Of a stretch of 64,000 bases of DNA, positions 4,258 through 60,775 are shown one piece after another; within the stretch, counting starts at the first letter, position 1, and every line of letters starts with the position of its first letter. Position numbers and translations under genes: made by a program. Under the pieces are notes generated by a model. That model was not told where the DNA came from and made no database searches. It saw only the letters and a program-made list of their open reading frames with translations. Origin of the DNA: Levilactobacillus mulengensis (GTDB lineage: Bacteria > Bacillota > Bacilli > Lactobacillales > Lactobacillaceae); NCBI RefSeq assembly GCF_003946045.1, contig NZ_RHNW01000004.1, positions 124,001-188,000 of the forward strand, read 5' to 3'.

Positions 4258-4441
4258 GCCTTACCGGACGGCAAAAATGGGGCGGAACGCTGTGGGCAGG
4301 ACGCCCAGAGCCAAAGGGCGGTCTCTGTGCTCGCTTTGAACCGCTGAGTAACGCGTTTCAAAGACGCCATTAAAGAAGCGACGGCAGATGCCGGCGTTTT
4401 TTTAATCCCACGGCTGACCCCATTTTTGCCGTCCTCTCGGC
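4258..4441 (+). repeat. R1 cloverleaf-like intergenic repeat, copy R1-1 (divergent)
   Basis: Outer arms GACGGCAAAAATGGGG (4267-4282) and its perfect reverse complement at 4418-4433 enclose three hairpins: CAGAG/CTCTG around the constant CCAAAGGGCGGT, a CTTTGAA/TTCAAAG hairpin, and a fourth stem beginning ATTAAA and closing TTTAAT. It lies between the beta-helix gene stop and that gene's likely terminator at 4499. Confidence 0.8.
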
Positions 4442-4498
4442 TGAGACTGGTTTAGCCATGTCTTGTCTGGGTGATGATTTTATAAATAGTTCATGTGG

Positions 4499-4536
4499 TT
4501 CAACCTGCTTAATTGCGGGTTGGGCCTTTTTTTGTG
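4499..4536 (+). terminator. Intrinsic terminator after the beta-helix gene and R1-1
   Basis: CAACCtGC and GCgGGTTG form a stem followed by GGCC and a run of seven T. Confidence 0.7.
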
Positions 4537-4714
4537 CAGTGACAGCATGCAGAGTTGCGGGCAACTAGTGTGGTCGGGAATTCTGTTATCGGCCGCTGGG
4601 TTTTGCTACGCTGGTTGCGGTGCTTGTGAGATGCCCGAACCTTTGGAGAATTTCTCTTGCACCTAATAAAAGGTGCTCAGCGATTAGGCTGGCGCATCGT
4701 GGAGGATGTCATAG

Positions 4715-5212
4715 ATGACAAGATTACATAAGCAATTACTACACGCTGGCCTGGCCTTGATGACGGTAGCAACGGTTGGGGCTGCAATCCCTGGAACGAC
4801 GGCTAATGCCGCAACGCGGACAGTGCCTCAGTCCTTGAGAAATACCTGGTTTGCCTGGGGAAAAGGCGATGGCGGTGCGAATAGAGTTAAGATTACAGCC
4901 AAGACTTATACCAACACGCTTGGGGTGTATCAACATGGCAAATGGCGTGTGAATAGCGAGAAGCATACGCTGAAACTAGGCAAGAAGGTAAAGAAGAATA
5001 AGACCTTTACGTTGAGCAAAAAGGCGGACAAGAATGGTTACCGGACGTTGACGACCTCGGATCAGTATAGTAAATATGTAATGAAGGTTAAACGCGTTAA
5101 AGTTCACAACAAAACCAAGTTAAAAATGGTTACCAAATTTTCTGACAACTCTAAACGAACCGACATGTTCTTCCCGGTGACTAAGAAAATCATCAACACA
5201 TATATGGATTAG
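4715..5212 (+). CDS. Small secreted protein, GTWY-motif family, paralogue 1
   Basis: 165 residues starting 9 bases after GGAGG. Residues 1-33 form a signal peptide ending TANA-A. The mature part begins VPQSLRNTWFAW, the family signature P-x2-L-R-x-T-W-F/Y, followed by a Lys/Thr-rich, beta-strand-like region (KITAKTYTN, HTLKLGKKVKKNKTFTLSKK). It is first of six tandem paralogues up to 8211; the gene and about 200 bp of upstream sequence resemble paralogue 2 and its upstream region, pointing to tandem duplication. No characterised family was recognised. The G/N-x-W motif early in a small beta-rich secreted protein recalls lipocalin-like barrels, but that is only an idea. Confidence 0.8.
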   Translation: MTRLHKQLLHAGLALMTVATVGAAIPGTTANAATRTVPQSLRNTWFAWGKGDGGANRVKITAKTYTNTLGVYQHGKWRVNSEKHTLKLGKKVKKNKTFTLSKKADKNGYRTLTTSDQYSKYVMKVKRVKVHNKTKLKMVTKFSDNSKRTDMFFPVTKKIINTYMD

Positions 5213-5425
5213 GACAAGTTAGATTGAGATAGTTGCGGGCTTTTTTTGTTTGAGGTACGAAATGCAGAGTTACAGGCATTCTTCTCGGTCGGTAAGACTG
5301 TTATGGCCGTTTTAGTTTGCTAGGCTTTACCAAGTGTTTGCGAAGCGCTTCAATGACAGAATGTGACGTTAAGCACCAAATAAAGATGTGTCCGCCGAGT
5401 GTGGATGCATCATGGAGGATTGAAA

Positions 5426-5977
5426 ATGACAGATTTACATAAACAGTTGTTGCGCGCTGGTTTGGCGTTGGTGACACTGACCAGCGTGGGATTGGCTGGG
5501 ACAACGGCTAACGCGGCGACCAAGCTAGGCAATTCTGTGCCGAAGTCCTTGCGGGGAACTTGGTACGAGTTGAATAGCCAGTCAGGAATCATGCGGGTTA
5601 AGCTGACCGCCAAGACCTACAGCATTTCCAAGGGGTTCTTTATTAAAGGCAAATGGACGCCTAATTGGAACGGTGGCAAGACGTATCGGCTAGGGAAAAA
5701 GGTCAAGTTGCGTAAGACATTCACGATTTCGGCCAAGAATAATAAAAAGGGTTACCGAACGATTACGGCACGCCACAACAGTTATTCTTACGTGAAGTCC
5801 CAGTATAAACGGATGACCTCTAGGTATTCAAAACAAATTGTTTTGGGCCATAGAGCAATGACCTACACCAATAAACATACCCCTACAATGAGTGATACGT
5901 ATCCGTCGGAGTTGGCGCCATATGCCAATCCGGCCAAGCATTTTTACGATGAATATGGCATTGGTAGTCTGAAGTAG
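5426..5977 (+). CDS. Small secreted protein, GTWY-motif family, paralogue 2
   Basis: 183 residues; the ATG at 5426 is chosen because GGAGG at 5414-5418 lies between it and an upstream in-frame candidate at 5399. The signal peptide (LHKQLLRAGLALVTLTSVGL) closely matches paralogue 1 and ends TANA-A. The mature N-terminus is SVPKSLRGTWYELNS, then VKLTAKTYSISKG and the shared YRLGKKVKLRKTFTIS block. The C-terminal third is unlike paralogue 1. Its TAG stop overlaps the ribosome binding site of the next gene, so the two are probably co-translated. Function unknown; exported and presumably wall-associated through its high positive charge. Confidence 0.8.
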   Translation: MTDLHKQLLRAGLALVTLTSVGLAGTTANAATKLGNSVPKSLRGTWYELNSQSGIMRVKLTAKTYSISKGFFIKGKWTPNWNGGKTYRLGKKVKLRKTFTISAKNNKKGYRTITARHNSYSYVKSQYKRMTSRYSKQIVLGHRAMTYTNKHTPTMSDTYPSELAPYANPAKHFYDEYGIGSLK

Positions 5978-5991
5978 GAGAGGTGAAAAAA

Positions 5992-6507
5992 ATGAAACGT
6001 GGCGTATTGATTAGTGTGAGCCTGTTATTGGGGGCTCTCGGATTAGGCATGAGTCGGCCAACAGCAGCGGATGCCGCAACGACAATTCCCCAAAATATGC
6101 GGGGAACTTGGTATTTCTCTAATGGTGATGAAGATCCTGGACTCACACGGGTCGTGATGAAGGCCAAGACTTACGATATCGCGTTTGGGACGTTCAGTCA
6201 TGGAAAGTTTGTTAAGAAGTGGAATAATAAGCAACCTTTGAAGCTGGCTAACCAATTGACGGTTAATAAGACGTTTACGACCAGTAAGCAAGGCAAGAAA
6301 CTAATACTGAAGACTAAGATGGCGGATTGGGGACTGATCACGACTACCTATTCGATGAAAAAGGGGCATCTCTATCAACAATGGGTCAAGGACGATAGTG
6401 GCGCCAAAAACGTTTATTTGAGTGGGACATTTAAATATAGCAAGCTAGCTCACCCAGGAAAATATTTGAATGAAGTGTATAAAGCGGGAACTGCTCGCCG
6501 GTTATAA
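5992..6507 (+). CDS. Small secreted protein, GTWY-motif family, paralogue 3
   Basis: 171 residues. An earlier GTG at 5983 overlaps the ribosome binding site (GGAGAGG, 5977-5983), so the ATG at 5992, about 8 bases after it, is the better start. Signal peptide of about 30 residues ending ADA-A. Mature signature TIPQNMRGTWYFSNGDED followed by RVVMKAKTYDIAFG and a KTFTTSKQGKK block in the same order as in paralogues 1 and 2. It begins 14 bases after the stop of paralogue 2, forming an operon-like pair. Function unknown. Confidence 0.78.
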   Translation: MKRGVLISVSLLLGALGLGMSRPTAADAATTIPQNMRGTWYFSNGDEDPGLTRVVMKAKTYDIAFGTFSHGKFVKKWNNKQPLKLANQLTVNKTFTTSKQGKKLILKTKMADWGLITTTYSMKKGHLYQQWVKDDSGAKNVYLSGTFKYSKLAHPGKYLNEVYKAGTARRL

Positions 6508-6549
6508 CGCTTAGCTATTAATGAAATTGATTAAAGGAGCAATGCTAAA

Positions 6550-7044
6550 ATGAAAAAGTCAGTATCAAGAATAGCCCTTACACTGTCCTTGCTAGGACTG
6601 GGGATTGTTGGCGCAACCGGTGTTTCAACAACGACGGCCCATGCTGCTAAGTTGTCAGCGGTGCCAAAGAATTTACGGAGTACTTGGGGCATGATGGGCG
6701 AAGAAGACTACATGGTTATTTTTACCAAGAATAGTTTTTCCTTCTCTACCATCAGGCGTTCGAAAAATAAGAATTGGGTTCTGGAAAAGTCACGCGAACC
6801 ATATGTGAGTTTGAAGCTGGGTAAGAAAGTCAAAGCGAACAAGACATTTACAATCAGCAAGAATAAGTATGGTTATGCCTATGTTCACTACAGACTTAAG
6901 CGCGAGAGCAGTAGCGATAAGTTCTACTTTAAGGTTAAGGGAAAGAAGTTAAAGTGGAGCGATTACGCAAATGGCAAAGAGGCCGAGGAGTATACAAAGC
7001 TACCGACGATGGCTAGTCGGACGGCGTTCTTCGGAAAATACTAG
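6550..7044 (+). CDS. Small secreted protein, GTWY-motif family, paralogue 4
   Basis: 164 residues with an AAAGGAG ribosome binding site. Signal peptide of about 32 residues ending AHA-A. The mature protein begins AVPKNLRSTWGMMGEED: the Pro, Leu-Arg and Thr-Trp of the family motif are kept, but Tyr is replaced by Gly. The later block LKLGKKVKANKTFTISKNK aligns with the other members. It follows paralogue 3 by 42 bp in the same direction. Function unknown. Confidence 0.78.
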   Translation: MKKSVSRIALTLSLLGLGIVGATGVSTTTAHAAKLSAVPKNLRSTWGMMGEEDYMVIFTKNSFSFSTIRRSKNKNWVLEKSREPYVSLKLGKKVKANKTFTISKNKYGYAYVHYRLKRESSSDKFYFKVKGKKLKWSDYANGKEAEEYTKLPTMASRTAFFGKY

Positions 7045-7104
7045 ACAACAAATTGATCAGCTTGGTGTGGATGATATATTTTTTGACAAAAGGAGATTTT
7101 TGAA

Positions 7105-7590
7105 ATGAAGAAGTTAGTGAAATTAGGCGTTGCAGCGTTAGTTGCTGTGAGCTTTGGCGGATTAACAGTTACGACGGCGGATGCAGCAACCTGGCACAAA
7201 GGGTTGCCTAAGATTATTCGGAACAAGATGTACCGGACTAAATTTGATATGACTTATCCAAATGATCCGCAATTCACTTGGTACAAAGGGACTAAATCGA
7301 CGTTAATGGAACATGCTACGCAAGGTGGTGCGGCAGATAAGATTTCTAAGACCAAGTATAAAAAGGTTGGCAAAACTTACGTTATTCATGGTTATGACAA
7401 GCTCGGTACTGCTAGAAATAAAATGTCTGGTAAATCTGGCAAGGTCTATGGCTATGTTCGTGTCCGCAAACTAAGCAATAAGAAAATCAAAATTGCTGAC
7501 GGTAAGAAAACTACTAAGTATGAGGGAAAGTATTTAACGATGCAGCGTTTTTACCACTTCCCACGAGTCAATGGTCGGGTACAAAAGTAG
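7105..7590 (+). CDS. Small secreted protein, diverged GTWY-family member, paralogue 5
   Basis: 161 residues with AAAGGAGA upstream. Signal peptide of about 27 residues ending ADA-A. The mature start ATWHKGLPKIIRNKMYRTK keeps the P-K-x2-R-N-x2-Y skeleton but lacks the GTW core. It is clearly closest to the next gene (same ATWHKGLP start, TKYKKVGK-Y-I-G block and a C-terminal LTMQRFYHFP region). Basic, beta-rich and probably wall-associated. Function unknown. Confidence 0.75.
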   Translation: MKKLVKLGVAALVAVSFGGLTVTTADAATWHKGLPKIIRNKMYRTKFDMTYPNDPQFTWYKGTKSTLMEHATQGGAADKISKTKYKKVGKTYVIHGYDKLGTARNKMSGKSGKVYGYVRVRKLSNKKIKIADGKKTTKYEGKYLTMQRFYHFPRVNGRVQK

Positions 7591-7605
7591 GGTATAAATG
7601 TAAGT

Positions 7606-7729
7606 CAATTTGTGCCGCTTTAGCGTAAATGAGATGCTTAACGGGGTGAATGGTTGTGATCTGCCGCCGGCTAACCAGAATTGTTATGGCATAGGTGACA
7701 AGTCAATTTGCCTCGTTTTCGTACATAGG
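7606..7729 (+). repeat. R4 leader repeat, copy 1
   Basis: A block upstream of the next secreted-protein gene that recurs at 9551-9652. Shared parts are CAATTTGYGCCGCTTTAGCG at the left, AACGRGG in the middle and CCTCGTTTTSGTACATAGG at the right. AACGGGG pairs with CCTCGTT through a G-U wobble, so the pairing survives the sequence change relative to copy 2. The middle of the element differs between copies. Confidence 0.6.
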
Positions 7730-7776
7730 TGAATTTTGAAAATAAGACTCACGTACAGAAGAGGAGAAATAACAAG

Positions 7777-31395: not shown

Positions 31396-33564
31396 ATGGA
31401 AACGAAACGGACACACTTCAAAATGTATAAGAGTGGCCGTCGCTGGGTCTTCGCCTGTGCTGTGATGTTAGTCACGTTAGGCGCGGGGACCACGGTAACT
31501 GCCAATGCCGACACGAACTCATCGAGCGCCAGCAGTACGACTGAAGTGAAGGCTGCGACCAGCTCCGAGAGTGGTTCAGAGCAGAATGGTCAATCCTCAC
31601 AATCTGAAAGTGAATCTAGTAGCCAATCAACGTCAACTAGCGCATCTTCAATGTCCTCAGAACAAAGCAGTGCTGACGCACAAGATAGTTCAGTTAACAG
31701 TCAATCGACCAGCTCATCTGCAGCCAAAACGGTGAAGACGACCAGCGTTCGGCCAGGGACCACTCTGAAAAAGGGCACGTTGAAACCAGGCTTCAAGGCA
31801 AACAAGTTAGTTAAGAAGTCAATCAAGAAGACGGTTAAGCGTGCCACAACGACTAAGACGGTCACCTATGCGCACACTAGCGCTGCCGGTGCCAAGGCCG
31901 CTGTTGCAAGTTTAGCTAGCTCTGAAAAGACGCAAGCCGCTAAGCAAACGATTGCCAACATGCTCCAAAAGCTTGCTGGAACCGCCACGAAGACCAGTGC
32001 ATTTGAACCTTACGCGGATTCTGGGATTCAAGCCGGTGGCAGTGTTTACGATGACTTTCCTGACCTGAACAACATTCTCGGGGTTTCCTCTGTCTTTCAC
32101 ATTTTTGCCCGTGAAGCCGAATTGAACGCCCACACCAACGGGAACGTGGCCGTCCAAAACCTGACTGGGAACGTGAACTTCGGGACCAACATCATTGAAG
32201 AACTGCTCGACAAGGATATTTCTTACATACAGAACATTACCAACATTGCCAACAGCTCCTTCGTTTCCGGGGGATCAACTCGGGAAAACAAGGTTATCTT
32301 TGGTGAAGGTATTGAAATTGATATCAGCAACCCGAACCGGCCGATGGTCAACGGCCAATACATTGACCACTTATTGGCTCAGGAAGTTTACCAAGACCAA
32401 AACGGCCAAACGTACATCGACTTTGACGCCGAATTTGCTAAGCTGAAAGCCTTGAACGAAGCTCTGGCCAATCAAAAGAGCGAAGCCAGCTATTCCAACA
32501 GCGACTTCGACGACCAGAACAACCGGGTCATTGATATCAGTGACATGACCCCTAACGCTAACGGCCAGATCGTCATCAATTTGACACCGGACGTGCTTAA
32601 CAGCGATACGCCACTGACCATCTCCGGGTTATCACCAGACGCTGATGGGACCACGGTCATCATCAACGTGGATACCGGTGGTGCCGCTGACTATAACGTC
32701 AACTCCCAAATTAAGATCAAGTACAGTGACGGGTCCGACCGGGACAATCACGAAACGGAAGACTTTGGGGACAACCATTTGCTGTGGAACTTCTACAACA
32801 GCGGTGCCAGCGATAAGCAGTACACCGGGACGTTGGACTTTAAGAAGGCCTTCCAAGGCAGTATCTTAGCCCCATCCGCCACGGTCGTTGCTAGCTCCAA
32901 CATTGATGGGAACATCATCGCGGACAAGGTCATCGTTAACGCCGAAACCCACCGTTGGGACTTGCAAGATAACAAGGACAACGAAGGCGACGACGGGGAT
33001 GAGGACACCGACGAAGAGGAAGACCTCGAAATCCCTGTTCACCCTGGTATCGACGTTGAAATGCCAGAAATTCCTGACACGGAAGATCCTGACACCGAAA
33101 CGCCGGGGACTGAAGAGCCTAATACGGAGAATCCGAATACTGAGGAACCTAACACTGAGGAACCTAACACGGAAGAACCCGACACTGAAGAACCTGAAGG
33201 CGAAGCTAACGGTGGCGATGAGGACTTAACCTACGAACATGAGCACCCAGAATACACGGAAGACATGGCCGAAGACTTTGAAGACGACCTGATCGACTTT
33301 GAAGCTGAGCGTAATACGGCCGCTGAAGAAACCTTGTTGAACAAGGTGGATGCTGCCATTGCCGCTGCTCGGGCCAAGGGTGATACGGAATTAGTTGCCC
33401 AATTGGAATCCGTTCGTGGCAATATCTTACAGGCTTTGGGCCTGTCTGATGGCTTACCACAAACTGGCGAAGCTAACGATAGCTGGTTGAGTGCCGTTGG
33501 GTTTACGCTGGCGGGCACATTATTAGCCACCGGCATCGCCGTTGACCGCAAGCGCCGGTACTAA
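31396..33564 (+). CDS. Sortase-anchored choice-of-anchor-A domain adhesin G
   Basis: 722 residues. Signal motif FKMYKSGRRWVFACA, cleavage after ANA. Ser-rich stretch (about 40-110), then a basic Lys/Thr segment. Residues about 205-520 match the choice-of-anchor-A domain: HIFAREAELNAHTNGNVAVQ near its start and GSILAPSATVVA with GNIIADKVIVNAETHRWDL at its end. This domain occurs in large surface proteins of lactobacilli and bacilli, often beside collagen-adhesin modules. An acidic linker with NTEEP/DTEEP repeats (about 555-605) and a helical acidic region precede LPQTG (about 687-691), a membrane helix and DRKRRY. It has the only classical LPxTG with Gly in the island and no WMPN head. Confidence 0.9.
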   Translation: METKRTHFKMYKSGRRWVFACAVMLVTLGAGTTVTANADTNSSSASSTTEVKAATSSESGSEQNGQSSQSESESSSQSTSTSASSMSSEQSSADAQDSSVNSQSTSSSAAKTVKTTSVRPGTTLKKGTLKPGFKANKLVKKSIKKTVKRATTTKTVTYAHTSAAGAKAAVASLASSEKTQAAKQTIANMLQKLAGTATKTSAFEPYADSGIQAGGSVYDDFPDLNNILGVSSVFHIFAREAELNAHTNGNVAVQNLTGNVNFGTNIIEELLDKDISYIQNITNIANSSFVSGGSTRENKVIFGEGIEIDISNPNRPMVNGQYIDHLLAQEVYQDQNGQTYIDFDAEFAKLKALNEALANQKSEASYSNSDFDDQNNRVIDISDMTPNANGQIVINLTPDVLNSDTPLTISGLSPDADGTTVIINVDTGGAADYNVNSQIKIKYSDGSDRDNHETEDFGDNHLLWNFYNSGASDKQYTGTLDFKKAFQGSILAPSATVVASSNIDGNIIADKVIVNAETHRWDLQDNKDNEGDDGDEDTDEEEDLEIPVHPGIDVEMPEIPDTEDPDTETPGTEEPNTENPNTEEPNTEEPNTEEPDTEEPEGEANGGDEDLTYEHEHPEYTEDMAEDFEDDLIDFEAERNTAAEETLLNKVDAAIAAARAKGDTELVAQLESVRGNILQALGLSDGLPQTGEANDSWLSAVGFTLAGTLLATGIAVDRKRRY

Positions 33565-33578: not shown

Positions 33579-33750
33579 GCCTTACCGGGCGGTAAAAATG
33601 GCCTGGAACGCGGTGGGGAGGACGCCCAGAGCCAAAGGACGGTCTCTGGACTTGCTTTGAGCCGCCAAACGCGCGTCTCAAAGTCACCATTTACTGAGGG
33701 TTCCCCTCAGTAAATCCCACGGCTGAGGCCATTTTTACCGCCCTCACGGC
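33579..33750 (+). repeat. R1 cloverleaf-like intergenic repeat, copy R1-2
   Basis: Outer arms of 18 bp, GGGCGGTAAAAATGGCCT (33587-33604), paired perfectly with 33726-33743. Internal hairpins: CCAGAG/CTCTGG; CTTTGAG/CTCAAAG; ATTTACTGAGG/CCTCAGTAAAT. GTGGG near the left pairs with CCCAC near the right, forming an inner extension of the outer stem. Confidence 0.85.
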
Positions 33751-38273: not shown

Positions 38274-38447
38274 GCCGAGAGGGCAGAGAAAATGGATTCA
38301 GCCGTGGGAATTCTCTTAGCGGTTCACCGCTTAGAGAATTGGTATCTTTGAGACATGGTCCACGGCTCAAAGTAAGCCAGAAGACCGCTCTACGGCTTCG
38401 GGCGTCCGCCCACAGCGTCCCGGTCCATTTTCTCTGCCCGGTAAGGC
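38274..38447 (-). repeat. R1 cloverleaf-like intergenic repeat, copy R1-3 (reverse)
   Basis: Outer arms GGGCAGAGAAAATGGA (38281-38296) and its perfect complement at 38424-38439. Hairpins in reverse order: AATTCTCTTAGCGG/CCGCTTAGAGAATT (one mismatch), CTTTGAG/CTCAAAG, GAAG/CTTC. It ends 18 bases from the HxlR stop codon. Confidence 0.85.
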
Positions 38448-42667: not shown

Positions 42668-42685
42668 ATTTGTCAATTAGCGTTT

Positions 42686-42871
42686 CCGTTCCCGACGGTA
42701 GGCTCAAGGTTCCCCGCTATGGGGTCGGTTCCGGCCTGAGAGGCGGTCCTCCATCTCGACTTTGAGCCAAGAATCGGTCTCAAAGGTCGACCCATGGTCT
42801 AAGCTGAGATAAACCCACTCAGCTAAGACCATCGACACAGCTGGGAACCTTGGCCCACCTCTGGTCACTGA
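42686..42871 (+). repeat. R2 structured intergenic repeat, copy R2-1
   Basis: Left end CCGTTCCCGACGG, right end CCACCTCTGGTCACTG. CAAGGTTCCC pairs with GGGAACCTTG as outer stem. Inside are the CTTTGAGCC/GGTCTCAAAG hairpin shared with R1 and ATGGTCTAAGCTGAG/CTCAGCTAAGACCAT (one mismatch). Confidence 0.75.
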
Positions 42872-42900
42872 CACGAATCGACAAATTTAAAATTATTTGC

Positions 42901-42954: not shown

Positions 42955-43605
42955 CTAGGGCTGTAAAACTTTTTCCAGTTCGGCGACTAAATAGCCGGCT
43001 TCAACGTCATCGTCCCACGCCCGATTGGGGAAGAGGACGTACCGATCCAGGACGTAGCCGACAACGACGGCAATCATATAACGGAATATTTCGTTAAACG
43101 GCCAGTCAATAATGATTTTATTTTTTTGTAACAACAAAATGGTATCTTTGAATGCGGCAATCAATTCCTGCCGGGCGGTCTCAATGAATTCGGTCCGCAA
43201 CGTTTCGTTGTAAAGGAGTTCACTGAAAAAAACCTTGATGGCATCCTGGTTATTTGCCGCGAACGCCATACGGTTACGGACGAAGAAGTCCAGAAATTCA
43301 TGGAGATTGGCAGCCGGGTGCGTCAACGTTTCGCGTTTGAACTCGGCTTCGACGTCGGGAATGATTTCGTGAATGATGGGCTCCAGGGCCGCCCGCAAGA
43401 TGTTGGCCTTAGATTTAAAATGTTTGAACATGGTCCCTTCGGACTGGTGCGCGGCTTCAGCAATCTGGCGCGTACTCGTGTTGGCATAACCCTGTTCGGC
43501 AAAAAGACGGATGCTGGCAATCAGCACGTCTTTTTGTTTTTGCGTTAGGTCTTCGTTGGCCTGAATGACGTCAGGAAATTCGTCTAAAATTTTCTTATTT
43601 GACAT
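42955..43605 (-). CDS. TetR-family transcriptional regulator
   Basis: 216 residues with AAAGGTGG upstream. Residues about 25-70 form the TetR HTH: IRLFAEQGYANTSTRQIAEA followed by HQSEGTMFKHFKSKANIL. The C-terminal ligand/dimer domain (about 75-216) is helical and contains no cysteine cluster. No divergent target is adjacent; an R1 element lies upstream. The effector is unknown. Confidence 0.9.
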   Translation of the reverse strand: MSNKKILDEFPDVIQANEDLTQKQKDVLIASIRLFAEQGYANTSTRQIAEAAHQSEGTMFKHFKSKANILRAALEPIIHEIIPDVEAEFKRETLTHPAANLHEFLDFFVRNRMAFAANNQDAIKVFFSELLYNETLRTEFIETARQELIAAFKDTILLLQKNKIIIDWPFNEIFRYMIAVVVGYVLDRYVLFPNRAWDDDVEAGYLVAELEKVLQP

Positions 43606-43664
43606 GAAAATACCACCTTTGGTTGAGTCAAATTTGTTTACGGTTAAAGCTGGTCGTTTTACTT

Positions 43665-43838
43665 GCCTCCGGGCTGGTGAAAATGGGCCGGAACGCGGTG
43701 GGCGCCGCCTGAAGCCAAAGGGCGGTCTTCAGGCTTACTTTGAGCCGGAAAAACACGTCTCAAAGATAGCAGTTGCCTAAGCGGGAAACCCGCCAAGGCA
43801 ACTCCCACGGCTGAGCCCATTTTCACCAGCCCTGCGGC
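43665..43838 (+). repeat. R1 cloverleaf-like intergenic repeat, copy R1-4
   Basis: Outer arms GGGCTGGTGAAAATGGGC (43671-43688) and its perfect complement 43815-43832, extended by GCC/GGC at the ends. Hairpins: CCTGAAG/CTTCAGG, TTTGAG/CTCAAA, GTTGCC/GGCAAC with inner GCGGG/CCCGC. Closely related to R1-5. Confidence 0.88.
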
Positions 43839-44005
43839 TAACGGTAGATTTAATCGTTAATGTTCTGCTGTCGTTATGATTATCTGTGAACTAGTTTACA
43901 CTTGAAAAGCCCGAGTTTAGAGTGGCTGATGAGTGATGACACTCTGCGTACATGGCAACTCAAAAGATGAAGAAATCATTTTTCGGTGAAACTGGCGTGC
44001 GCGGT

Positions 44006-44063
44006 GTCAGTGACCAGAGCTGGGGGCCATAGCAGCTAATCTTGAATTCGCCGCCGGGAACGG
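44006..44063 (-). repeat. R2 repeat, miniature copy (reverse)
   Basis: Has GTCAGTGACCAGAG at one end and GAATTCGCCGCCGGGAACGG at the other, the R2 ends in reverse, with the interior deleted. Confidence 0.6.
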
Positions 44064-44109
44064 TACTAACACAACCAGTTTAACCCGTTGAAAGCAGGAA
44101 TACTAGAGC

Positions 44110-44153
44110 AAAAGAGCCGGTCTGTCTGTGTCCAGGACAGTCCGGCTCTTTGT
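44110..44153 (-). terminator. Intrinsic terminator of the small membrane-protein gene
   Basis: AAAGAGCCGGtCTGTC pairs with GACAGtCCGGCTCTTT. Confidence 0.85.
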
Positions 44154-44177
44154 GTCGTCAGGGGTGAAACGGGAAAT

Positions 44178-44447
44178 CTAAGCGTTGTGGGTTGACCCGA
44201 CTTTGCGGTAAGCCAGGACTAACTGGATGATGGCTAGGACCACGTTGACCCAGTTGACTGCGGTGAACCAGCCGACCAGAACGGCCACGCTAGCAGCACC
44301 GTAGAATACCCAGAAGCCTAGGATGATCGCAATCACGTTGATCCAACCGAACCATTTCATCAACTCCTGGTTATCCGTTGCAAAGCAAGTCCAAACGCCG
44401 TTAACAACTAACCAAATAGCAAGAATCCAAAAAATAGTGGTAAACAT
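44178..44447 (-). CDS. Small three-helix membrane protein
   Basis: 89 residues from the ATG at 44447 (AAAGGGGA upstream, nine bases away); a longer frame from 44483 would put a charged extension before the first helix and lacks a ribosome binding site. Hydrophobic stretches TIFWILAIWLVVNGVW, FGWINVIAIILGFWVFYGA and VNWVNVVLAIIQLVLAYRKV suggest three membrane spans with many Trp. No family was recognised. Monocistronic, with R1 and R2 elements downstream. Confidence 0.65.
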   Translation of the reverse strand: MFTTIFWILAIWLVVNGVWTCFATDNQELMKWFGWINVIAIILGFWVFYGAASVAVLVGWFTAVNWVNVVLAIIQLVLAYRKVGSTHNA

Positions 44448-44563
44448 GATTATAATCCCCTTTCCAAATCTTCGAGTGAGCACTTACTCGCCCTCAAGAA
44501 CAACTTCAGTTTACCACCAATTTTTAAAATGACAACCCTTTTGGCCAAAAATTTTAAGCAATG

Positions 44564-44613
44564 AAAAAGGCGACGCTGAATCCCTTAGAGTACCAGGGAT
44601 GGCGTCGTCTTTC
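44564..44613 (-). terminator. Intrinsic terminator of the aldo/keto reductase gene
   Basis: GACGaCGCC-type arms (AAAAAGGCGACGC and GCGTCGTCTTT with ATCCCT/AGGGAT inside) form a long stem; T-rich on the minus strand. Confidence 0.82.
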
Positions 44614-44649
44614 TCAGTTGAAATTAATTTTTCGGTTTTAAAAATAAGT

Positions 44650-45600
44650 TTATGGCAGGTAGTTGCCGGCAGCAAAGTAGATGTCGTACCATTCCTGCTT
44701 CGTCAGGTTAACGTCGGCACCGGCCGCGCTATCCTTGATGTGGTCAGGGTTCATGGTTCCCAGCAAGACTTGAATGTTGGCTGGGTGCCGGAGAATCCAG
44801 GCCGTGGCGATACCGTTCTTGGAAATGCCATACTTGTCAGCGAGTTCTTGCAGCTTGGCGTTCAGTTCGGGGTACTTCGGATCGTTGATGAACATACCTT
44901 CGAACAGACCGTACTGGAAAGGTGACCAGGCTTGAATCGTGACGTGTTTGCGCCGTGAAAATTCAAGCAAACCGCCGTCGGTCACGGCTGGGGCGTCGTC
45001 CATGTTGACGCGCAACCCTTCCGTCACCATTTGGGCGTGAGCGGCACCAAATTGCAGTTGGTTGAACATCAGCTTCTGGTCAACGACTTCCTGGACCATC
45101 AGGTATTGTTGCACGTTGAAGTTAGAAACCCCAAAGTGACGAACTTTTCCTGCTCGTTGCAGGGTATTGAAGGCGTCCGCGATTTCTGCGGGGTCCATCA
45201 GTGGGTCTGGCCGGTGCAGCAGGAAGGCGTCCAGGTAATCCAACCCCATCCGTTCCAAAATGCCATCGACAGCATCCAACAAGTGTTGCTTGGAGAAGTC
45301 GTAACGTTGGCCAAAGACCAAGCCATCGTGGCTACGACTTTGATCCAGCACGATGCCACCCTTGGATTGGATGTAGAAATCATCGCGGGAAAGGCCGGAC
45401 TTAGCCAGCGCTTCTTTGAAAATCTTTTCGGATTGACCGTCGCCATAAATATCGGCGGAGTCAATGTAGGTAATGCCAGCTTCGTGCGCAGCTTGTAAAG
45501 CTTTAACGGCATCGTCAACGGAAAGTGTCGACATGCGCATGATTCCCAGGGCAACGGCTGACGCTTGCCAGTCGGTCCCACCTAATTGCAGTTGTTTCAT
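44650..45600 (-). CDS. Aldo/keto reductase (YdhF-like)
   Basis: 316 residues with AAAGGAG upstream. The AKR catalytic tetrad is visible: Asp in TYIDSADIYGDG with Tyr in DIYG, Lys in IQSKGG and His in FLLHRPDPL. VRHFGVSNF and the C-terminal LGTMNPDHIKD match the NADPH-binding strands. The closest group I recognise is the E. coli YdhF type, with unknown physiological carbonyl substrates. It stands alone; two R1/R2 elements lie upstream. Confidence 0.92.
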   Translation of the reverse strand: MKQLQLGGTDWQASAVALGIMRMSTLSVDDAVKALQAAHEAGITYIDSADIYGDGQSEKIFKEALAKSGLSRDDFYIQSKGGIVLDQSRSHDGLVFGQRYDFSKQHLLDAVDGILERMGLDYLDAFLLHRPDPLMDPAEIADAFNTLQRAGKVRHFGVSNFNVQQYLMVQEVVDQKLMFNQLQFGAAHAQMVTEGLRVNMDDAPAVTDGGLLEFSRRKHVTIQAWSPFQYGLFEGMFINDPKYPELNAKLQELADKYGISKNGIATAWILRHPANIQVLLGTMNPDHIKDSAAGADVNLTKQEWYDIYFAAGNYLP

Positions 45601-45723
45601 CGGAAAAACTCCTTTAATTGTAGAATAAAAGCTTACAGCTACTAGTGTACACGATTTTCGTCAAAAATTCGCGTGAGAGCCTTCCAGCACTTGGTTACGG
45701 GTGGACACTTGTCTTTGCTTTTC

Positions 45724-45898
45724 GCCTCCGGGCTGGTGAAAAATGGGCCGTGACGCTGTGGGCGCACGTCTGGAGCCGAAGGGCGGTCTCCAGACTTACT
45801 TTGAGCCGAAAAATCCGTCTCAAAGATAGCAGTTGCCTAAGCGGAGGACCCGCTAAGGCAACTCCCACGGCTTAGCCCATTTTCACCAGCCCTGCGGC
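45724..45898 (+). repeat. R1 cloverleaf-like intergenic repeat, copy R1-5
   Basis: Outer arms GGGCTGGTGAAAAATGGGC and GCCCATTTTCACCAGCCC (one extra A in the left arm). Hairpins: GTCTGGAG/CTCCAGAC, CTTTGAG/CTCAAAG, GTTGCC/GGCAAC. Compared with R1-4, stem 2 is changed on both arms. Confidence 0.88.
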
Positions 45899-45989
45899 TG
45901 AGACTTGTTCAGCCCGCAACTAGGTGCACGGCTCACGTCTATTTTTGTTTACGCCAGGTATTCGTGAGTGTTATTGGTCAATGTTGCTG

Positions 45990-46205
45990 GGGAGGTGGCT
46001 ACTTTGCAAGGCGCCCTGCTGTGGAGTCGGTTCCAGCCAAAGGGCGGGCTTCCACCTCAACTTTGAGCCTGGGGTGCGGTCTCAAAGGTTGCCCCATGGT
46101 CTAAGCTGAGTGAGAAACCTCAGCTAAGACCATCGACACAGCTGGTCACCTTGGCGCGCCTCTGGTCACTCCCACGACCGACCCAGTTTTCCCAGCCCTG
46201 CGGCT
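45990..46205 (+). repeat. R2 repeat joined to an R1 right end (chimeric copy R2-2)
   Basis: GCTGTG/CACAGC and CAAGG/CCTTG as outer pairs; CTTTGAGCC/GGTCTCAAAG-type and ATGGTCTAAGCTGAG/CTCAGCTAAGACCAT hairpins (the latter with one mismatch). After the R2 right end GCCTCTGGTCACT the sequence continues as CCCACGACCGACCCAGTTTT and CCCAGCCCTGCGGCT, an R1 right end. Confidence 0.65.
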
Positions 46206-46379
46206 AAGACTGATTTGGCCCGCAGCGCGTGTGTGCCAACTCTTGGGCTATTTCTTGATATGTAATGTGTTGTGAGCACCTATTTGTTGACTTGTTTCGG
46301 AAAATTTGAAAGGTTATGGAGAGTTGCTGGTAGTTTGGGGGATTAACTGACTGACAGTTGACTGAAGAGTATCCTCGCA

Positions 46380-46620
46380 TTAAATTTTGTCGCGGTTGTG
46401 GACCAGCTTAGCCGGAGGAGGACAGGACGGAGCCAGCTGTGGCGACGGTGTTGGCTGGGGTTCTTTCCCAGCCTACAGCGTGGGACAATCTTTGAGACGT
46501 GAACTTCGGCTCAAAGTTGAGGTGGAAGCCTGCCTCATAGGCTGGAACCGGCCCCATAGCAGGCGGAGCTCCTGGCAGCCGCAGGCGACCTGGTCCCGAC
46601 AACGGCAACATAAAATTTAA
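46380..46620 (-). repeat. R2 structured intergenic repeat, copy R2-3 (reverse)
   Basis: TTAAATTTT and AAAATTTAA close the element; TTGT-GGACCAG pairs with CTGGTCC-ACAA inside. Hairpins GGCTGGG/CCCAGCC and CTTTGAG/CTCAAAG follow. It ends directly at the -35 of the ABC operon promoter. Confidence 0.65.
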
Positions 46621-46622
46621 TG

Positions 46623-46668
46623 TTGACAATTCCCCAAGAACCGTTATAGTTAATTACACAAGTAACTA
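46623..46668 (+). promoter_or_regulatory. ABC-GntR operon promoter and operator
   Basis: TTGACA (46623-46628), 16 bp, TATAGT (46645-46650). The inverted repeat TAGTTA-N10-TAACTA (46647-46668) overlaps the -10 and is the likely binding site of the GntR regulator encoded last in the operon. Confidence 0.75.
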
Positions 46669-46699
46669 ACCAACAGACTAATGAGTGGGGGAATTTAAC

Positions 46700-47458
46700 A
46701 TGACAACAAACACAGTGGTCAGCGTCAGTGGCCTAGAAAAAACGTATGGTAAAGCAAACGAACGGCAGTACACCGCCTTGAAAGGCCTGAACTTCACCGT
46801 CGATTCCGGGGAATTCGTCGGCATCATGGGGGCGTCTGGGTCCGGGAAGACGACGCTGTTGAATATGCTGTCCACATTGGATACGCCAACCAAGGGGGAT
46901 GTGGTGGTCAACGGCCATGACGTCACTAAGATGCGCGGTAACCAGCTCGCGGATTTTCGGGCGCAGGAAGTCGGCTTTATTTTCCAAGACTTCAACCTGC
47001 TGGAGAGCTTGACGGCCGAAGAAAATATTGGTCTGCCACTGGCCTTGAAGGGCACGCCATCCAAGGTGATGGATCAGGCGATTCACGAGGTGGCCGAGAC
47101 GCTGTCGATTGCAGACTTATTGCAAAAGTATCCTGCCGAACTCTCCGGGGGCCAGAAGCAGCGGGTCGCCGCTGCCCGGGCCATCGTTCACCACCCCGCC
47201 ATTTTAATGGGGGATGAACCGACCGGGGCGTTGGATTCGACCAGTGCCCGGGAACTGCTGGACCTGTTGACGACCATCAACGAACAACAAAAGATGTCCG
47301 TCCTCTTGGTCACGCATGATCCGTTCTCTGCCAGTTTCTGCCAACGCATCCTGTTCATCAAGGACGGGCAGATTGGCTCCGAGTTACGCCGCGGCGACCA
47401 GGACCGGAGCACCTTTTATCAGGGGATTTTGACCGAATTAGGCACGTTTAACGAGTAG
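46700..47458 (+). CDS. ABC transporter ATPase, BceA/MacB-like
   Basis: 252 residues; GTGGGGGA upstream of the ATG contains a GTG (46685) that belongs to the ribosome binding site. Walker A GASGSGKTT (about residue 40), Q-loop FIFQDFNLL, signature LSGGQKQR, Walker B ILMGDEPTGALD and H-loop VTHD are all intact. Members of this group partner FtsX-like permeases in export or sensing of peptide antibiotics. First gene of a three-gene operon; the permease start is 11 bases after its stop. Confidence 0.93.
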   Translation: MTTNTVVSVSGLEKTYGKANERQYTALKGLNFTVDSGEFVGIMGASGSGKTTLLNMLSTLDTPTKGDVVVNGHDVTKMRGNQLADFRAQEVGFIFQDFNLLESLTAEENIGLPLALKGTPSKVMDQAIHEVAETLSIADLLQKYPAELSGGQKQRVAAARAIVHHPAILMGDEPTGALDSTSARELLDLLTTINEQQKMSVLLVTHDPFSASFCQRILFIKDGQIGSELRRGDQDRSTFYQGILTELGTFNE

Positions 47459-53798: not shown

Positions 53799-53978
53799 GC
53801 CTGCGGTGGTTTAAGCAGGCTAACCCAAGGGGACCGGCTGAAGCCAAAGAGCGGTCTTCAGCCTCATTTCCAAGCCTCATAAAAGGCATGAGTCTTGAAA
53901 ATGTCCATGGTGTAAGGCCGAGGAAAACGCTCGGTCTAACGCCATTTTCATGGGTAAGCAGACTTAACCACCTCCGGC
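53799..53978 (+). repeat. R1 cloverleaf-like repeat, copy R1-8 (variant)
   Basis: GCC...GGC ends and outer arms GGTGGTTTAAGC and the roughly complementary GACTTAACCACC. Hairpins GGCTGAAG/CTTCAGCC; CAAGCCTCAT/ATGAGTCTTG in place of CTTTGAG/CTCAAAG; ATGGTGTAAGGCCGAG with CTCGGTCTAACGCCAT, which pairs with two wobbles and one mismatch. Confidence 0.75.
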
Positions 53979-57032: not shown

Positions 57033-57367
57033 TGTCCATGTGTTTTCCCACGCAACACGTGATCAACGTGCGCCAGGGTTTCGTTAACGATATCTAAAAT
57101 ATGGGGATCATCGAGTTGGTAAAAACTCTGTTTGCCCACGCGACGTGAGGAGACTAACTGTTCCTTTTTAAGCATGGCCAACTGGTGGGAGACCACGGAT
57201 TGTTCCGCTGCCAGTAGGGTGCTGAGCTCGCTGACGTTGAGTTCCCGTTGTTCCAGCAAGTAGAGAATTTGCAGACGGGTCGTATTGCTTAATAATTTAA
57301 AAATGTCCTGGGACGCACCCAGCGCGGGTTCAGTGATTAAATGCACGTTTTCAGTAATATCTGTCAT
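57029..57367 (-). CDS. ArsR/SmtB-family metal-sensing repressor (CzrA-like)
   Basis: 112 residues; the ATG at 57367 follows AAAGGAG, which lies inside the longer frame starting at 57388. [23 protein letters not shown] with wing [15 protein letters not shown]. The C-terminal helix has [17 protein letters not shown], which is Asp-x-His-x10-His-x2-His, the alpha-5 metal site of SmtB/CzrA-type Zn(II)/Co(II) sensors. The ELCVCD cysteine box of Cd/As sensors is absent. A His-containing tail (KTHGH) follows. It is divergent from CadD, which it should repress until metal binds. Confidence 0.92.
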
Positions 57368-57385
57368 GAAAAAGCTTGCTCCTTT

Positions 57386-57425
57386 CATATGAACGTGATA
57401 ACATATGTTGTAGATAACATGTGTA
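57386..57425. promoter_or_regulatory. ArsR-type operator region between arsR-like and cadD-like genes
   Basis: Direct copies ATAACATATGTTG and ATAACATGTGTA, with CATATG at 57386-57391 and the palindrome AACATATGTT at 57400-57409, between the two start codons. AT-rich dyads here are typical ArsR-family binding sites. Confidence 0.6.
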
Positions 57426-57438
57426 AAGGGATGAGTTC

Positions 57439-58041
57439 ATGATGAAGACGATTTTAACCGGGGTGACGGCGTATATCTCCACCGGGTTAGACTACTTAAT
57501 TATTCTAATGGTAATCTTCGGCCGCGTAAAGCACCAAGACCGCTGGCTGGTCCTAATCGGGGATTTTTTAGGGACCATTGTGCTGGTCGGGAGCTCGTTA
57601 GCCATCGCGTTTTTCCTGGGCTTCGTGCCCGCGCCGTGGCTACTGGGCTTTCTGGGATTGATTCCAATTTACTTGGGAATCAAGCTCTGGGTGGCCGGGG
57701 ATGACGATGATACCGACGCCATCGCGGCCAAGGTCGCTGATCCGAAACGCCTGATTGGCAGTGTGGCGTTGATTACCATGGCAACCTGTGGGGCGGATAA
57801 CGTGGGTATCTATGTCCCACTCTTCACCACGGTTGCGCCGGCCACGATACCGCTAATTTTACTGACGTTTGCCGTGATGGTCGTGATTTTCTGGGAAATT
57901 GGCTATCGGTTGGCCTGCCTGCCCAAGGTGGCGGATGTTTTGGAAAAGGAAGGGCGCTACATTACGATTGCTGTGTACATCCTGATTGGGCTGTACATCT
58001 TATGGGACAGTGGGACGTTCCAGCATTTGTTAGCCCTGTGA
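57439..58041 (+). CDS. cadD: CadD-family cadmium/cation resistance transporter
   Basis: 200 residues, five to six membrane segments. The start TAYISTGLDYLIILMVIF, the cytoplasmic acidic loop AGDDDDTDAI, and MATCGADNVGIYVPLF with FWEIGYRLAC match CadD proteins, which export or sequester Cd2+ in staphylococci and lactobacilli. The Asp and Cys/Asn in the membrane segments are the likely metal contacts. The divergent CzrA-like regulator suggests response to Zn/Cd. Monocistronic; ends at a bidirectional terminator. Confidence 0.9.
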   Translation: MMKTILTGVTAYISTGLDYLIILMVIFGRVKHQDRWLVLIGDFLGTIVLVGSSLAIAFFLGFVPAPWLLGFLGLIPIYLGIKLWVAGDDDDTDAIAAKVADPKRLIGSVALITMATCGADNVGIYVPLFTTVAPATIPLILLTFAVMVVIFWEIGYRLACLPKVADVLEKEGRYITIAVYILIGLYILWDSGTFQHLLAL

Positions 58042-58061
58042 TAGTGGAACAGTCTTCATGA

Positions 58062-58100
58062 AAAAAGCGACACCCGCAATTTTGTGGGCGTCGCTTTAAT
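58062..58100. terminator. Bidirectional terminator between cadD-like and YeiH-like genes
   Basis: AAAGCGACaCCC pairs with GGGcGTCGCTTT. Confidence 0.85.
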
Positions 58101-58124
58101 TGTGTTGTCAGTTTAAAAGAGTGG

Positions 58125-59156
58125 CTAGAAGAACAACTTGCTGGCAATCGTCACACCGGTTAGGAGTACGACGGACGACAGTGTGGCTGCGAGGAAGGCA
58201 TTGCCCCCGCGCTGGAAAATGACGCGGAAGTTGACGCTCATGCCCAGGGCAGCCATGGCCATGCCCAAGAAGATGTAAGCCAATTTGACCAAGGCGGCTA
58301 ACGCAGCGGCGCCCAGCGGAATCCAGGTACCGATGACGCTGGTCAACAGAAAGCCGGCCATGAACCAAGGAATCGGCAGCTTGGTGGGGCCGTCGTTGGT
58401 CGTGGTGCCGGCCGTTTGCTTCTGGTACCACCAGCCAATGATGAGGGCGGCGGGGGCCAGCAACAGGACCCGGGATAACTTGGTGATGATGGCCGTGTCT
58501 AAACTGACCGGACCACCCGCACTCCCGGCCGCAACGGCGTGGGCGATTTCGTGCAGGGACCCACCCGTCATGACCCCGAATTGGACGGCGGTCAGGTGGA
58601 GGAGTGGTTTCAACCCAATTTCAATCAAGGTAAAGACCGTTCCTAAAATGGCGACGATGGCCACGGCCAGGACTTCGTTTTCGCGCTGACGTTCGGCCTT
58701 GTCCGGACTTACCTTGATCTGCGGCGACACGCCCATCACGGCAGCGGCCCCACAGATGCTGGTCCCGGTGGCGGTGAGAATGGCCAGCTCCCGGTCGACG
58801 CCGAGCTTGCGGCTGAGGTTGTAGGTCAGAAGCACCATCCCGGTGACCACGACGGCGGCCAAGGTAATCGTCTTGACACCAGCTTGAGCGAGTTGAATCA
58901 GGTTCAATTTGAACCCTAAAAGAATAATCCCTAAACGCAGAAATTTATTACTGATGAAACCGATCCCGGCGCGATTGGCGTTGACTGCCTGTGGTGCCAG
59001 TTGGAGCGCCATGCCCAGCAGGAGGGCGATGACCAGGGCACCGACTAAGTTCAGGTAAGGCAGTTGGGCCAGCTCGCTGCCGGCGACGGCGCAGATTAGG
59101 GTTAGACCGGCGGCACCCCAGAAGCTGCGTGTCGCCATAGTTGCTCGAATATTCAA
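58125..59156 (-). CDS. YeiH-family putative sulfate/sulfite exporter
   Basis: 343 residues, about ten membrane segments. The TTG start follows AGGAGGAG by eight bases. Family blocks LLLGMALQLAP, GIILLGFKLNL, GTSICGAAAVMGVSP, GGSLHEIAHAVAAG and LGMAMAALGMSVNF are intact. YeiH proteins are proposed anion channels or exporters, linked in enterobacteria with the LysR regulator YeiE and sulfite tolerance. Here the LysR gene is divergent with R1-6 between them. Confidence 0.9.
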   Translation of the reverse strand: MNIRATMATRSFWGAAGLTLICAVAGSELAQLPYLNLVGALVIALLLGMALQLAPQAVNANRAGIGFISNKFLRLGIILLGFKLNLIQLAQAGVKTITLAAVVVTGMVLLTYNLSRKLGVDRELAILTATGTSICGAAAVMGVSPQIKVSPDKAERQRENEVLAVAIVAILGTVFTLIEIGLKPLLHLTAVQFGVMTGGSLHEIAHAVAAGSAGGPVSLDTAIITKLSRVLLLAPAALIIGWWYQKQTAGTTTNDGPTKLPIPWFMAGFLLTSVIGTWIPLGAAALAALVKLAYIFLGMAMAALGMSVNFRVIFQRGGNAFLAATLSSVVLLTGVTIASKLFF

Positions 59157-59198
59157 ATGAAACTCCTCCTCAAATGGGTTAAACCGGTCGTTGCCAGT

Positions 59199-59380
59199 GC
59201 CTCCGGGATGGTGAAAATGAGACCGGTTCGCGGTGGGCGGGCGTCCAGAGCCAAAAGGCGGTCTCTGAACTTACTTTGAGCCGCTGGGAAACGCGTCTCA
59301 AAGATACCAAGTCCCTAAGCGGCCAGGCCCGCCACTAAGGGACTTCCCACGGCTGGGCTCATTTTCACCATCCCTGCGGC
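59199..59380 (+). repeat. R1 cloverleaf-like intergenic repeat, copy R1-6
   Basis: Outer arms GGGATGGTGAAAATGAG (59205-59221) and its perfect complement 59358-59374. Hairpins: CAGAG/CTCTG, CTTTGAG/CTCAAAG, AAGTCCCT/AGGGACTT. It lies in the divergent promoter region. Confidence 0.88.
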
Positions 59381-59410
59381 TAGCATGGGTTTAATCCATA
59401 GAAATGTTTG

Positions 59411-59423
59411 TTATTACTAATAA
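59411..59423. promoter_or_regulatory. LysR-type T-N11-A site
   Basis: TTATTACTAATAA is a near-palindrome of the T-N11-A type, between the divergent YeiH and LysR genes. A TATAAT for the LysR gene follows at 59509-59514. Confidence 0.5.
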
Positions 59424-59537
59424 TCCGTTCTTATTAAGCAAGTAATAGTTTACTGGAAATTTGTTATAAGATAAAATTGGGATATTTAATAACACTATAA
59501 ATTCAGCTTATAATGAAGCCAATTTGGAGGTGTTCGG

Positions 59538-60413
59538 ATGTTAGATAATCGTTATCAAACGTTATTAGTGCTGGTGCAGACCAAATCGTATACGCAAACG
59601 GCGCGGCAGTTATTTATTACGCAACCGGCCGTGTCGCAACAGATCAAGAGTTTGGAGACGGAATTAAATGTAGAGTTGGTGCACTACGAACGGCCGCATT
59701 TAACCATTACGCCGGCGGGGCAGGAGCTGGCCGCTTTTGTGCAGCGGGTGCAGGTGCAGGCGGGCAAGGTCGTTGCCAGTCTCCAGCATCCACAGGCCCA
59801 ACGGCAACTCACCTTTAGCACGACCCTTTCGCTGAGTGAATTTCTCGCGCCCCAATTGATTCGGCTGCTGCAAGGCCAGGCGGACTACCGGCAAGTGACC
59901 TGTCAGGTAACCAACACTCAGGCGGCGTTGACGGCCATCGATGAGGGGACCAGCGACTTTGCTTTAATTGAAGGGAATTTTGACAAGACCCGCTACGATT
60001 ACCAAATTGTTCGCGAGGAACCCTTCGTGGGCGTCATCGCCGCGGATCAATCGGTCGCCCAACAGGCAACGGTGAGCTGGCACGACCTCACGGCATATCC
60101 CTTGTTGGTCCGGGAAGAGGGATCCGGTAGCCGGGAAATCCTGGTCAGTCTGGCCCAGGCGGCCAATGTCACATTAGCTGAATTCAGCCAGTTGATCACC
60201 GTCAACAATCCAGCGGCCATTCGTCAACTGCTGCTACGAGGTGCGGGTATCAGTTTTGTTTACCGCTCGGTCGTGGCTGACGAGTTGGCCAGTGGTCAGC
60301 TGAAGGTCCTACCGTTACCGGCCGGCCACCTGTTACATGACCTAGATGTGGTCTACGCCCGCGACAGCGTCTTCGCGATGAACTACCGGCGTTGGGCTAA
60401 GGCACTGGGGTAA
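59538..60413 (+). CDS. LysR-family regulator (YeiE/CysL-like)
   Basis: 291 residues with TTGGAGG upstream. N-terminal winged helix: TLLVLVQTKSYTQTARQLFI then TQPAVSQQIKSLETELNVEL. The C-terminal co-inducer domain (about 90-291) is of the type-2 periplasmic-binding fold; LVREEGSGSREIL matches the pocket segment found in CysL/YeiE/CbbR-like members. Its place opposite a YeiH transporter gene predicts that it activates that gene in response to a sulfur anion. Confidence 0.93.
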   Translation: MLDNRYQTLLVLVQTKSYTQTARQLFITQPAVSQQIKSLETELNVELVHYERPHLTITPAGQELAAFVQRVQVQAGKVVASLQHPQAQRQLTFSTTLSLSEFLAPQLIRLLQGQADYRQVTCQVTNTQAALTAIDEGTSDFALIEGNFDKTRYDYQIVREEPFVGVIAADQSVAQQATVSWHDLTAYPLLVREEGSGSREILVSLAQAANVTLAEFSQLITVNNPAAIRQLLLRGAGISFVYRSVVADELASGQLKVLPLPAGHLLHDLDVVYARDSVFAMNYRRWAKALG

Positions 60414-60605
60414 TGGAGCGGCTAGTCAGGCTGGAAAATTGTTATCATATAAAATTCTCAGTGAATGGATACGTTTCAGTCCGGAATGTTGATAACCAGT
60501 GGTTATGGGGGAATAGCTGTATTTGGAACTAAGCCAGTCTTCTACCATAAAGATGGACACAAAATCGATGGTAACCCGCCGCTAATATGAGTTGAATCAA
60601 TATGA

Positions 60606-60775
60606 GCCGGGAGGGTGGTGAAAATGAGTTCAGCCGTGGGATTTGCTGGGCAGAGCCTAGCAAATGGCGACTTTGAGACTCGAATTTTGAGGCTCAAAGC
60701 GAGTTCAGAGACCGTACTTTGGCTCTGGACGTCCTGCCCACAGCGTTCCAATCTCATTTTCACCACCCGGTAGGC
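60606..60775 (-). repeat. R1 cloverleaf-like intergenic repeat, copy R1-7 (reverse)
   Basis: Outer arms GGGTGGTGAAAATGAG (60613-60628) and its perfect complement 60753-60768. Hairpins in reverse order: ATTTGCT/AGCAAAT with inner GGC/GCC, CTTTGAG/CTCAAAG, CAGAG/CTCTG. Confidence 0.88.

Follow-up and report, generated by a model that had tools for sequence, protein, structure and literature searches.

BOX elements of streptococci are composite, folded repeats with terminal inverted repeats. In the sections of PMC3049150 on which we draw, 125 of them are counted in one Streptococcus pneumoniae genome and thought to be parasitic, BOX-type families are reported in S. suis, and de novo searches for BOX-type repeats in other species are described as not thorough. 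In the Bacillus cereus group, BCR repeats reach up to 130 complete bcr1 copies per genome, and bcr1 to bcr3 are likened to miniature inverted-repeat transposable elements (MITEs) in the parts of PMC3446304 and PMC6542083 used here. We describe a family of folded DNA repeats in Levilactobacillus mulengensis (NCBI RefSeq assembly GCF_003946045.1), found in 64,000 nucleotides of contig NZ_RHNW01000004.1 (positions 124,001 to 188,000). Here ‘the window’ refers to this whole stretch, and its positions are counted from its first letter. The family is very numerous in lactobacilli, adjoins genes, and comprises three types (A, B, and C) built on one plan. On balance, we favor that it is a non-autonomous, mobile-type folded-DNA repeat that would work like the streptococcal BOX elements.

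Type A is about 175 bp long, type B about 200–270 bp, with the extra length outside its core, and type C is the copy at 53799..53978 (+ strand). Read in its orientation, an element begins with a GCC end and an outer arm of about 18 bp, continues through a junction stem (GTGGG/CCCAC) and three hairpins (hp1, hp2, and hp3), and closes with the second arm and a GGC end. Hairpin hp1 is closed as AGCC-loop-GG followed by a bulged T, hp2 contains a C.T mismatch, and hp3 an A.A mismatch. Terminal inverted repeats and a fold of the whole element are thus present, as in BOX elements. The anatomy is exemplified by the type A copy at 43665..43838 (+). Its 5′ outer arm (43671..43688) pairs with its 3′ outer arm (43815..43832) over 18 perfect bp, both positions being counted on the sequence. 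Between the arms, hp1 (GCCTGAAGCC-AAAGGGC-GG-T(bulge)-CTTCAGGC) occupies 43707..43734, hp2 (CTTTGAG ... CTCAAAG, with the C.T mismatch) 43738..43765, and hp3 (AGTTGCCT-A-AGCGG ..., with the A.A mismatch) 43771..43803, all on the + strand. An earlier note on the window had listed eight copies of a single cloverleaf-like element, and the stems and loops it named were found in the sequence.

Covariation was judged by shuffles and slides. The trimming pattern retained 48 of the 57 long type A copies, and 39 of these were aligned as oriented cores. In them 98.2% of 1,412 cells are paired, and standard changes affect both sides in 144 cells and one side in 3. Shuffles give means of 88.3% paired and 37.5 two-sided, with none of 500 reaching the observed 144, and sliding the partner by 1–3 columns leaves 26.8–49.5% paired. 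Chance palindromes are ruled out by these controls, and the stem compensation noticed earlier is borne out. When 149 copies from L. mulengensis and from G021, a Levilactobacillus relative used for ortholog comparisons, are aligned, 96.3% of 5,416 cells are paired and 860 cells are two-sided (35 of 38 pairs), in an alignment that is fitted to the model and so leans towards structure. For type B, alignment A4 (37 of 62 diverse cores, drawn from 82) has compensated changes in 14 of 30 predicted pairs. A joint alignment of all types was of no use.

Pairing of this kind could be selected in RNA or in DNA, and the pair types bear on the choice. If the element acted as RNA, forming folded 3′ untranslated regions (UTRs) or 5′ leaders for stability, ribonuclease processing, or attenuation, with pairing selected in the transcript, G.U would be tolerated and A.C would not on the strand of the RNA. 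The conserved pairs and loops are in keeping with such a role, and many copies lie near genes: type A starts a median of 24 bp (10–90%: 15–38) past a same-strand stop codon (31 copies) or a median of 92 bp ahead of an opposite-strand start codon (23 copies). However, the 3,803 cells of 103 type A rows hold 3,709 Watson–Crick pairs, 25 G.U, 52 A.C, and 17 others, and the remaining 44 rows hold 1,385, 30, 19, and 109, respectively. Together, these 147 of the 149 rows (two rows intermediate between the groups are omitted) have 55 G.U and 71 A.C among 5,346 cells. As a yardstick, 44 distinct transfer RNAs (tRNAs) of the same genome have 971 pairs, 915 Watson–Crick, 56 G.U, 0 A.C, and 0 other, although the tRNA finder itself favors standard pairs. 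Between orthologs, 36 same-type pairs have one-sided changes to G.U (60), to A.C (67), and of other kinds (59), besides 52 two-sided Watson–Crick changes and 19 from G.U to Watson–Crick. Wobble preference is absent on both strands, among copies and between orthologs.

The two gene contexts were counted separately. The 35 antisense leader copies have 24 A.C and 8 G.U, the direction expected of RNA from the transcribed strand, whereas the 50 sense 3′ UTR copies have 20 A.C and 14 G.U, the wrong direction for it; moreover, opposite strands would be in the transcript in the two contexts. Since A.C is in excess in both, RNA of the minus strand is compatible with these counts. A comparison with Rfam, a hit in which was named earlier as a possible refutation, gave no match for the whole window at gathering scores, for 43500–46700 searched to E 1, or for 17 loci of other genera at gathering scores. 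Because wobble is not preferred on either strand, unlike in the tRNAs, we consider the RNA element unlikely. Of the earlier proposal of selection on a folded RNA or single-stranded DNA, the compensation and constraint are real, and the RNA half is disfavored.

Specific defects in the pairing are kept. In the 103 type A rows, the bulged T is present in 103, the C.T mismatches in 101 and 103, and the A.A mismatches in 98 and 82; by eye, all three kinds recur in type C despite its other stems. We read the kept mismatches and the pair types as folded DNA with defined defects. The palindromes might instead be perfected without selection, by arm-to-arm template switching in replication and conversion between copies. 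Little wobble and a pairing that continues into copy-specific flanks (0–30 nt outside the element, own arms score 8.75 against 5.83 for swapped arms) would be expected then, as would changes in blocks. Such changes were observed: one ortholog pair differs in both outer arms at once around a nearly unchanged core, and another has an inverted hairpin loop. Part of the covariation is therefore block exchange of whole arms or interiors rather than independent point compensation. Nevertheless, under correction of this sort the bulged T and both kinds of mismatch, C.T and A.A, ought to disappear. They survive in 80–100% of type A rows and, by eye, also in type C, and for this reason we regard upkeep by template switching and conversion without selection as quite improbable.

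All eight copies listed earlier are real, six on the + strand and two on the −, and seven of them are type A. Besides 43665..43838, these lie at 4258..4441 (+), 33579..33750 (+), 38274..38447 (−), and 45724..45898 (+), at 59199..59380 (+), with divergent yeiH-like and lysR genes on either side, and at 60606..60775 (−), between a lysR and an MFS gene. The listing as one kind of element needs correction at the sixth copy, type C, which has its own arms and stems and shares with type A the hp1 loop, the mismatch pattern, and the plan; a search with R1, the covariance model of type A, detects this copy at E 1.1e-7. Nor was the list complete, as at least five more members are present: type B copies at 42677..42888 (+) and 46007..46204 (+, directly 3′ of the 45724 copy on the same strand), a copy at 46432..46563 (−) with type B profile scores and ends that resemble type C by eye, a type B fragment at 62251..62355 (−), and a type B copy at 63814..64000 (−) interrupted by the window end. 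Counting these, at least 13 members lie in the window, a density of roughly one every 5 kb. The gene at 31396–33564, whose stop codon the 33579 copy follows, encodes a surface protein that carries a KxYKxGKxW signal and a domain resembling ice-binding adhesive domains. The protein at 58128–59156, which we take to be yeiH-like, is Pfam Cons_hypoth698 and matches proteins of L. lanxiensis (99%), L. wangkuiensis (98%), and L. cerevisiae (96%), which places the host in Levilactobacillus.

Type A alone numbers at least 150 in the genome, R1 matching every one of the 150 candidates scored. The density of the window, should it be typical, extrapolates to about 600 elements per genome. Densities from 20 stretches of the genome are biased high, as these were chosen for type A BLAST hits, and the copy counts of G012, G002, and other genomes are lower bounds. 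R1 matches 28 of 35 Levilactobacillus genomes and none of 23 others of the order, and among 299 genomes of the phylum only L. mulengensis itself. R2, the model of the type B core, matches 33 of the 35 and 2 of the 23, and with stricter filters 24 of 295 genomes of the order, in 7 of 74 genera. Two Levilactobacillus genomes, G022 and G031, match neither model. Matches beyond Levilactobacillus have the same three-hairpin plan, at sites such as a purD-like/purE-like gap and a grpE-like/dnaK-like gap, where the gene and genus names are presumed from the proteins. The pattern TTTGAGCC-N3..14-GGTCTCAAA occurs in 63 of 395 genomes of the order and 6 of 80 genera, against 3 genomes, by our own count, for the reversed control, and the arrangement is visible in the folds of most of these loci. 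Other Lactobacillaceae and a Streptococcus-like genus share the three-hairpin plan and this hairpin. In another Lactobacillaceae genus, locus L170 (G576 C4:201792-202154) has three matches to the pattern on the same strand, spaced by 168 bases, as a tandem array of a related element.

Two of three patterns on viral contigs gave nothing, and the third gave loci L159 and L160. L159, a piece of an IMG/VR contig, has a type A match and a weaker one, at 883–1000 and 1232–1349; its type A copy is taken for host DNA beside a provirus edge. R1 has no match in L160. Incidentally, another hairpin repeat, with GCCGGC arms and a central hairpin and unrelated in sequence to types A–C, was seen by eye in several Levilactobacillus genomes (L091–L093 in the lysR/MFS gap, L003 2181–2489, and the end of L060 14817–15361).

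The placement of elements is polar. Type A has its nearest gene at its 5′ end, whichever strand the gene is on, in 53 of 55 cases (35 of 38 in G021), and type B in 47 of 57. The earlier statement that all copies are intergenic is nearly right: with genes called by a simple custom script, 7 loci in a sample of 141 share more than 40 bp with a predicted gene, in some cases at gene ends or at doubtful open reading frames. Type A lies on the leading strand, as inferred from GC skew, at 43:12 (p 3e-5). This bias, and the conservation of type A at orthologous sites, would suit a DNA site retained to the cell's benefit for replication, nucleoid, or recombination. On the other hand, type B is unbiased (28:29), type A is missing from 7 of the 35 genus genomes, and close relatives lack copies or have exchanged ones, which makes such a host site very unlikely. 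Two other origins were rejected. As a transcription terminator the element is not convincing, since in 53 same-strand cases (31 A and 22 B, after 12 with another element on the 5′ side were dropped) a terminator-like hairpin precedes the element in 3 and follows it in 12. Short open frames are present, yet loop lengths vary by one base between copies, arguing against a coding origin.

In single copies (L016 2594 and L004 12541), the end of the gene reappears in the 3′ flank, inverted and degenerate. Among flank pairs of L. mulengensis, 6 of 114 exceed the 99th percentile of swapped pairs (1.1 expected; 4 in a direct-repeat control), and in G021 2 of 78 (0.8 expected; control 1). Inverted flanks are thus true of single cases, but the overall excess is modest and the evidence weak. 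In L004 12541–12715 and its G021 ortholog L060 12150–12324, the flank aligned with the inverted gene end has five single-base gaps, at identical places in both species.

Type A is constrained. Between L. mulengensis and G021, divergence is 0.181 at 4-fold sites (23,920 sites), 0.069 in element-free intergenic DNA (45 regions), 0.054 in type A, and 0.100 in type B. The 5′ flanks, with few bases, give 0.100 (A) and 0.065 (B), and the 3′ flanks 0.164 (A) and 0.179 (B). Type A is thus far under neutral divergence, and the 3′ flank is near it. In type A orthologs, 87 of 835 unpaired sites differ; of 1,139 pairs, 38 have changed on one side and 21 on both.

Occupancy of orthologous sites varies between species, an insertion polymorphism like that of BOX elements. 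Of 14 loci compared upstream of the yeiH-like gene, that of L. mulengensis holds type A (the 59199 copy), a type B occupies the same point in G021 and G012, and by eye the remaining 11 contain nothing recognizable. In the lysR/MFS gap, also by eye, the type A copy at 60606 is common to L. mulengensis, L071, and L072, L073 has two elements, and L074 and L075 none. Across 109 orthologous intergenic regions of L. mulengensis and G021, 47 elements were matched (above 120 bits in both genomes), 18 as A/A, 18 as B/B, and 11 as A/B. In the A/B exchanges displayed, flanks and arms are alignable and interiors are not. In the A/A pairs, the ortholog is the top match among 46 sequences in 12 of 18 and ranks 5th to 22nd in 6, and hairpin deletions and interior deletions occur among orthologs. 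No variable tandem inner module was noticed, without a systematic search. At L016 7798–8399 and L006 2987–3600, a type B piece stands after a type A copy, and the flank specific to the locus, found beside the type A copy, recurs on the right of the type B piece; this arrangement is a local tandem duplication with a different interior.

If the family works as a folded-DNA mobile repeat, the selected form would be hairpins in single-stranded or extruded DNA, with the terminal inverted repeats. A putative hairpin-recognizing enzyme would insert the element, and the AGCC-loop-GGTCT hairpins with the bulged T may be its recognition sites. Conversion between copies would swap interiors, and part of the 3′ flank may arise from snap-back copying of the gene-side flank. 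In its widest form, this amounts to covariation at the DNA level: a Lactobacillales class of folded-DNA mobile elements recognized as single-stranded DNA through three hairpins with fixed mismatches, exchanging whole interiors among copies at fixed arms and growing palindromes by snap-back copying of the adjacent gene end. We hold this wider proposal only tentatively and think it doubtful as a whole.

Several points weigh against the folded-DNA mobile repeat. In 0.86 Mb sampled from two genomes, 13 of 437 arm matches lie outside elements and, as we read them, none frames a gene, so that no transposase gene between matching ends, as sought for a MITE, was found there. No match was found in the plasmid and phage records searched. 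No target-site duplication could be read, and no site had an empty allele alignable on both sides. The same type is present in both species at 36 of 47 matched sites, so movement would have to be slow. Type B lacks the strand bias and is less constrained, conversion between copies could partly explain the low divergence of type A, and the excess of A.C over G.U in type A is also expected of a minus-strand RNA. Finally, the presence of Y1 transposases does not track the element in the 35 genus genomes.

This last point bears on whether the element is a REPIN/RAYT or IS200-IS605 derivative mobilized by a Y1 transposase. The bulged-T hairpins resemble hairpins bound by Y1 transposases, and Y1 genes occur in 23 of the 35 genomes, L. 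mulengensis included. However, the copy-rich genomes G012, G002, G030, and G032 have no Y1 match, and G031 has Y1 matches without any R1 or R2 match, leaving a Y1 derivative hardly credible. Likenesses to REP/REPIN and IS200-IS605-derived elements (see PMC3733652) are the intergenic palindromes, the hairpin with an unpaired base, and the strand-tied orientation; the elements here differ in being much larger and multi-hairpin, with long terminal arms and no tracking of a Y1 transposase.

The earlier note knew no name for the element, and a related kind has been published as BOX. As far as the parts of PMC3049150 used here describe them, BOX elements are likewise dispersed, intergenic, and strongly folded, with inverted-repeat ends, several families per genome, and insertions that vary between genomes; their inner parts are exchangeable, to which the A/B exchange may correspond. 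The likeness would rest on build and behavior, in that the family seems to work like BOX, and not on boxA, boxB, or boxC sequence. The present family differs from BOX in reaching at least 150 copies of type A alone and 13 members in 64 kb, in a G+C content close to 57%, in a three-hairpin core that is fixed and retains its mismatches, in the swapping of A and B at sites that stay the same, and in its gene-facing polarity. What is new relative to BOX is the density, the A/B exchange, the polarity of the 5′ end towards the gene, and the leading-strand orientation of type A. BCR repeats, in the portions used of PMC3446304 and PMC6542083, are similarly genus-restricted and dispersed, 100–400 bp long, and often in UTRs; they differ in sequence, in lacking the three-hairpin plan, and in lower density. 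Their TTTAT motif was not noticed here, no search for one having been made. In the openly licensed literature we found no description of these elements in Levilactobacillus, although one may exist elsewhere.

One kind of repeat thus crowds a bacterial genome, providing hundreds of natural replicates for the question of RNA versus DNA folding. The comparison of G.U with A.C is a simple test that could serve for other repeats with covarying stems, before any of these is labeled RNA. The common hairpin ties lactobacillar to streptococcal repeats, and therefore the mover of BOX-type elements may be approachable through an enzyme common to these hosts.

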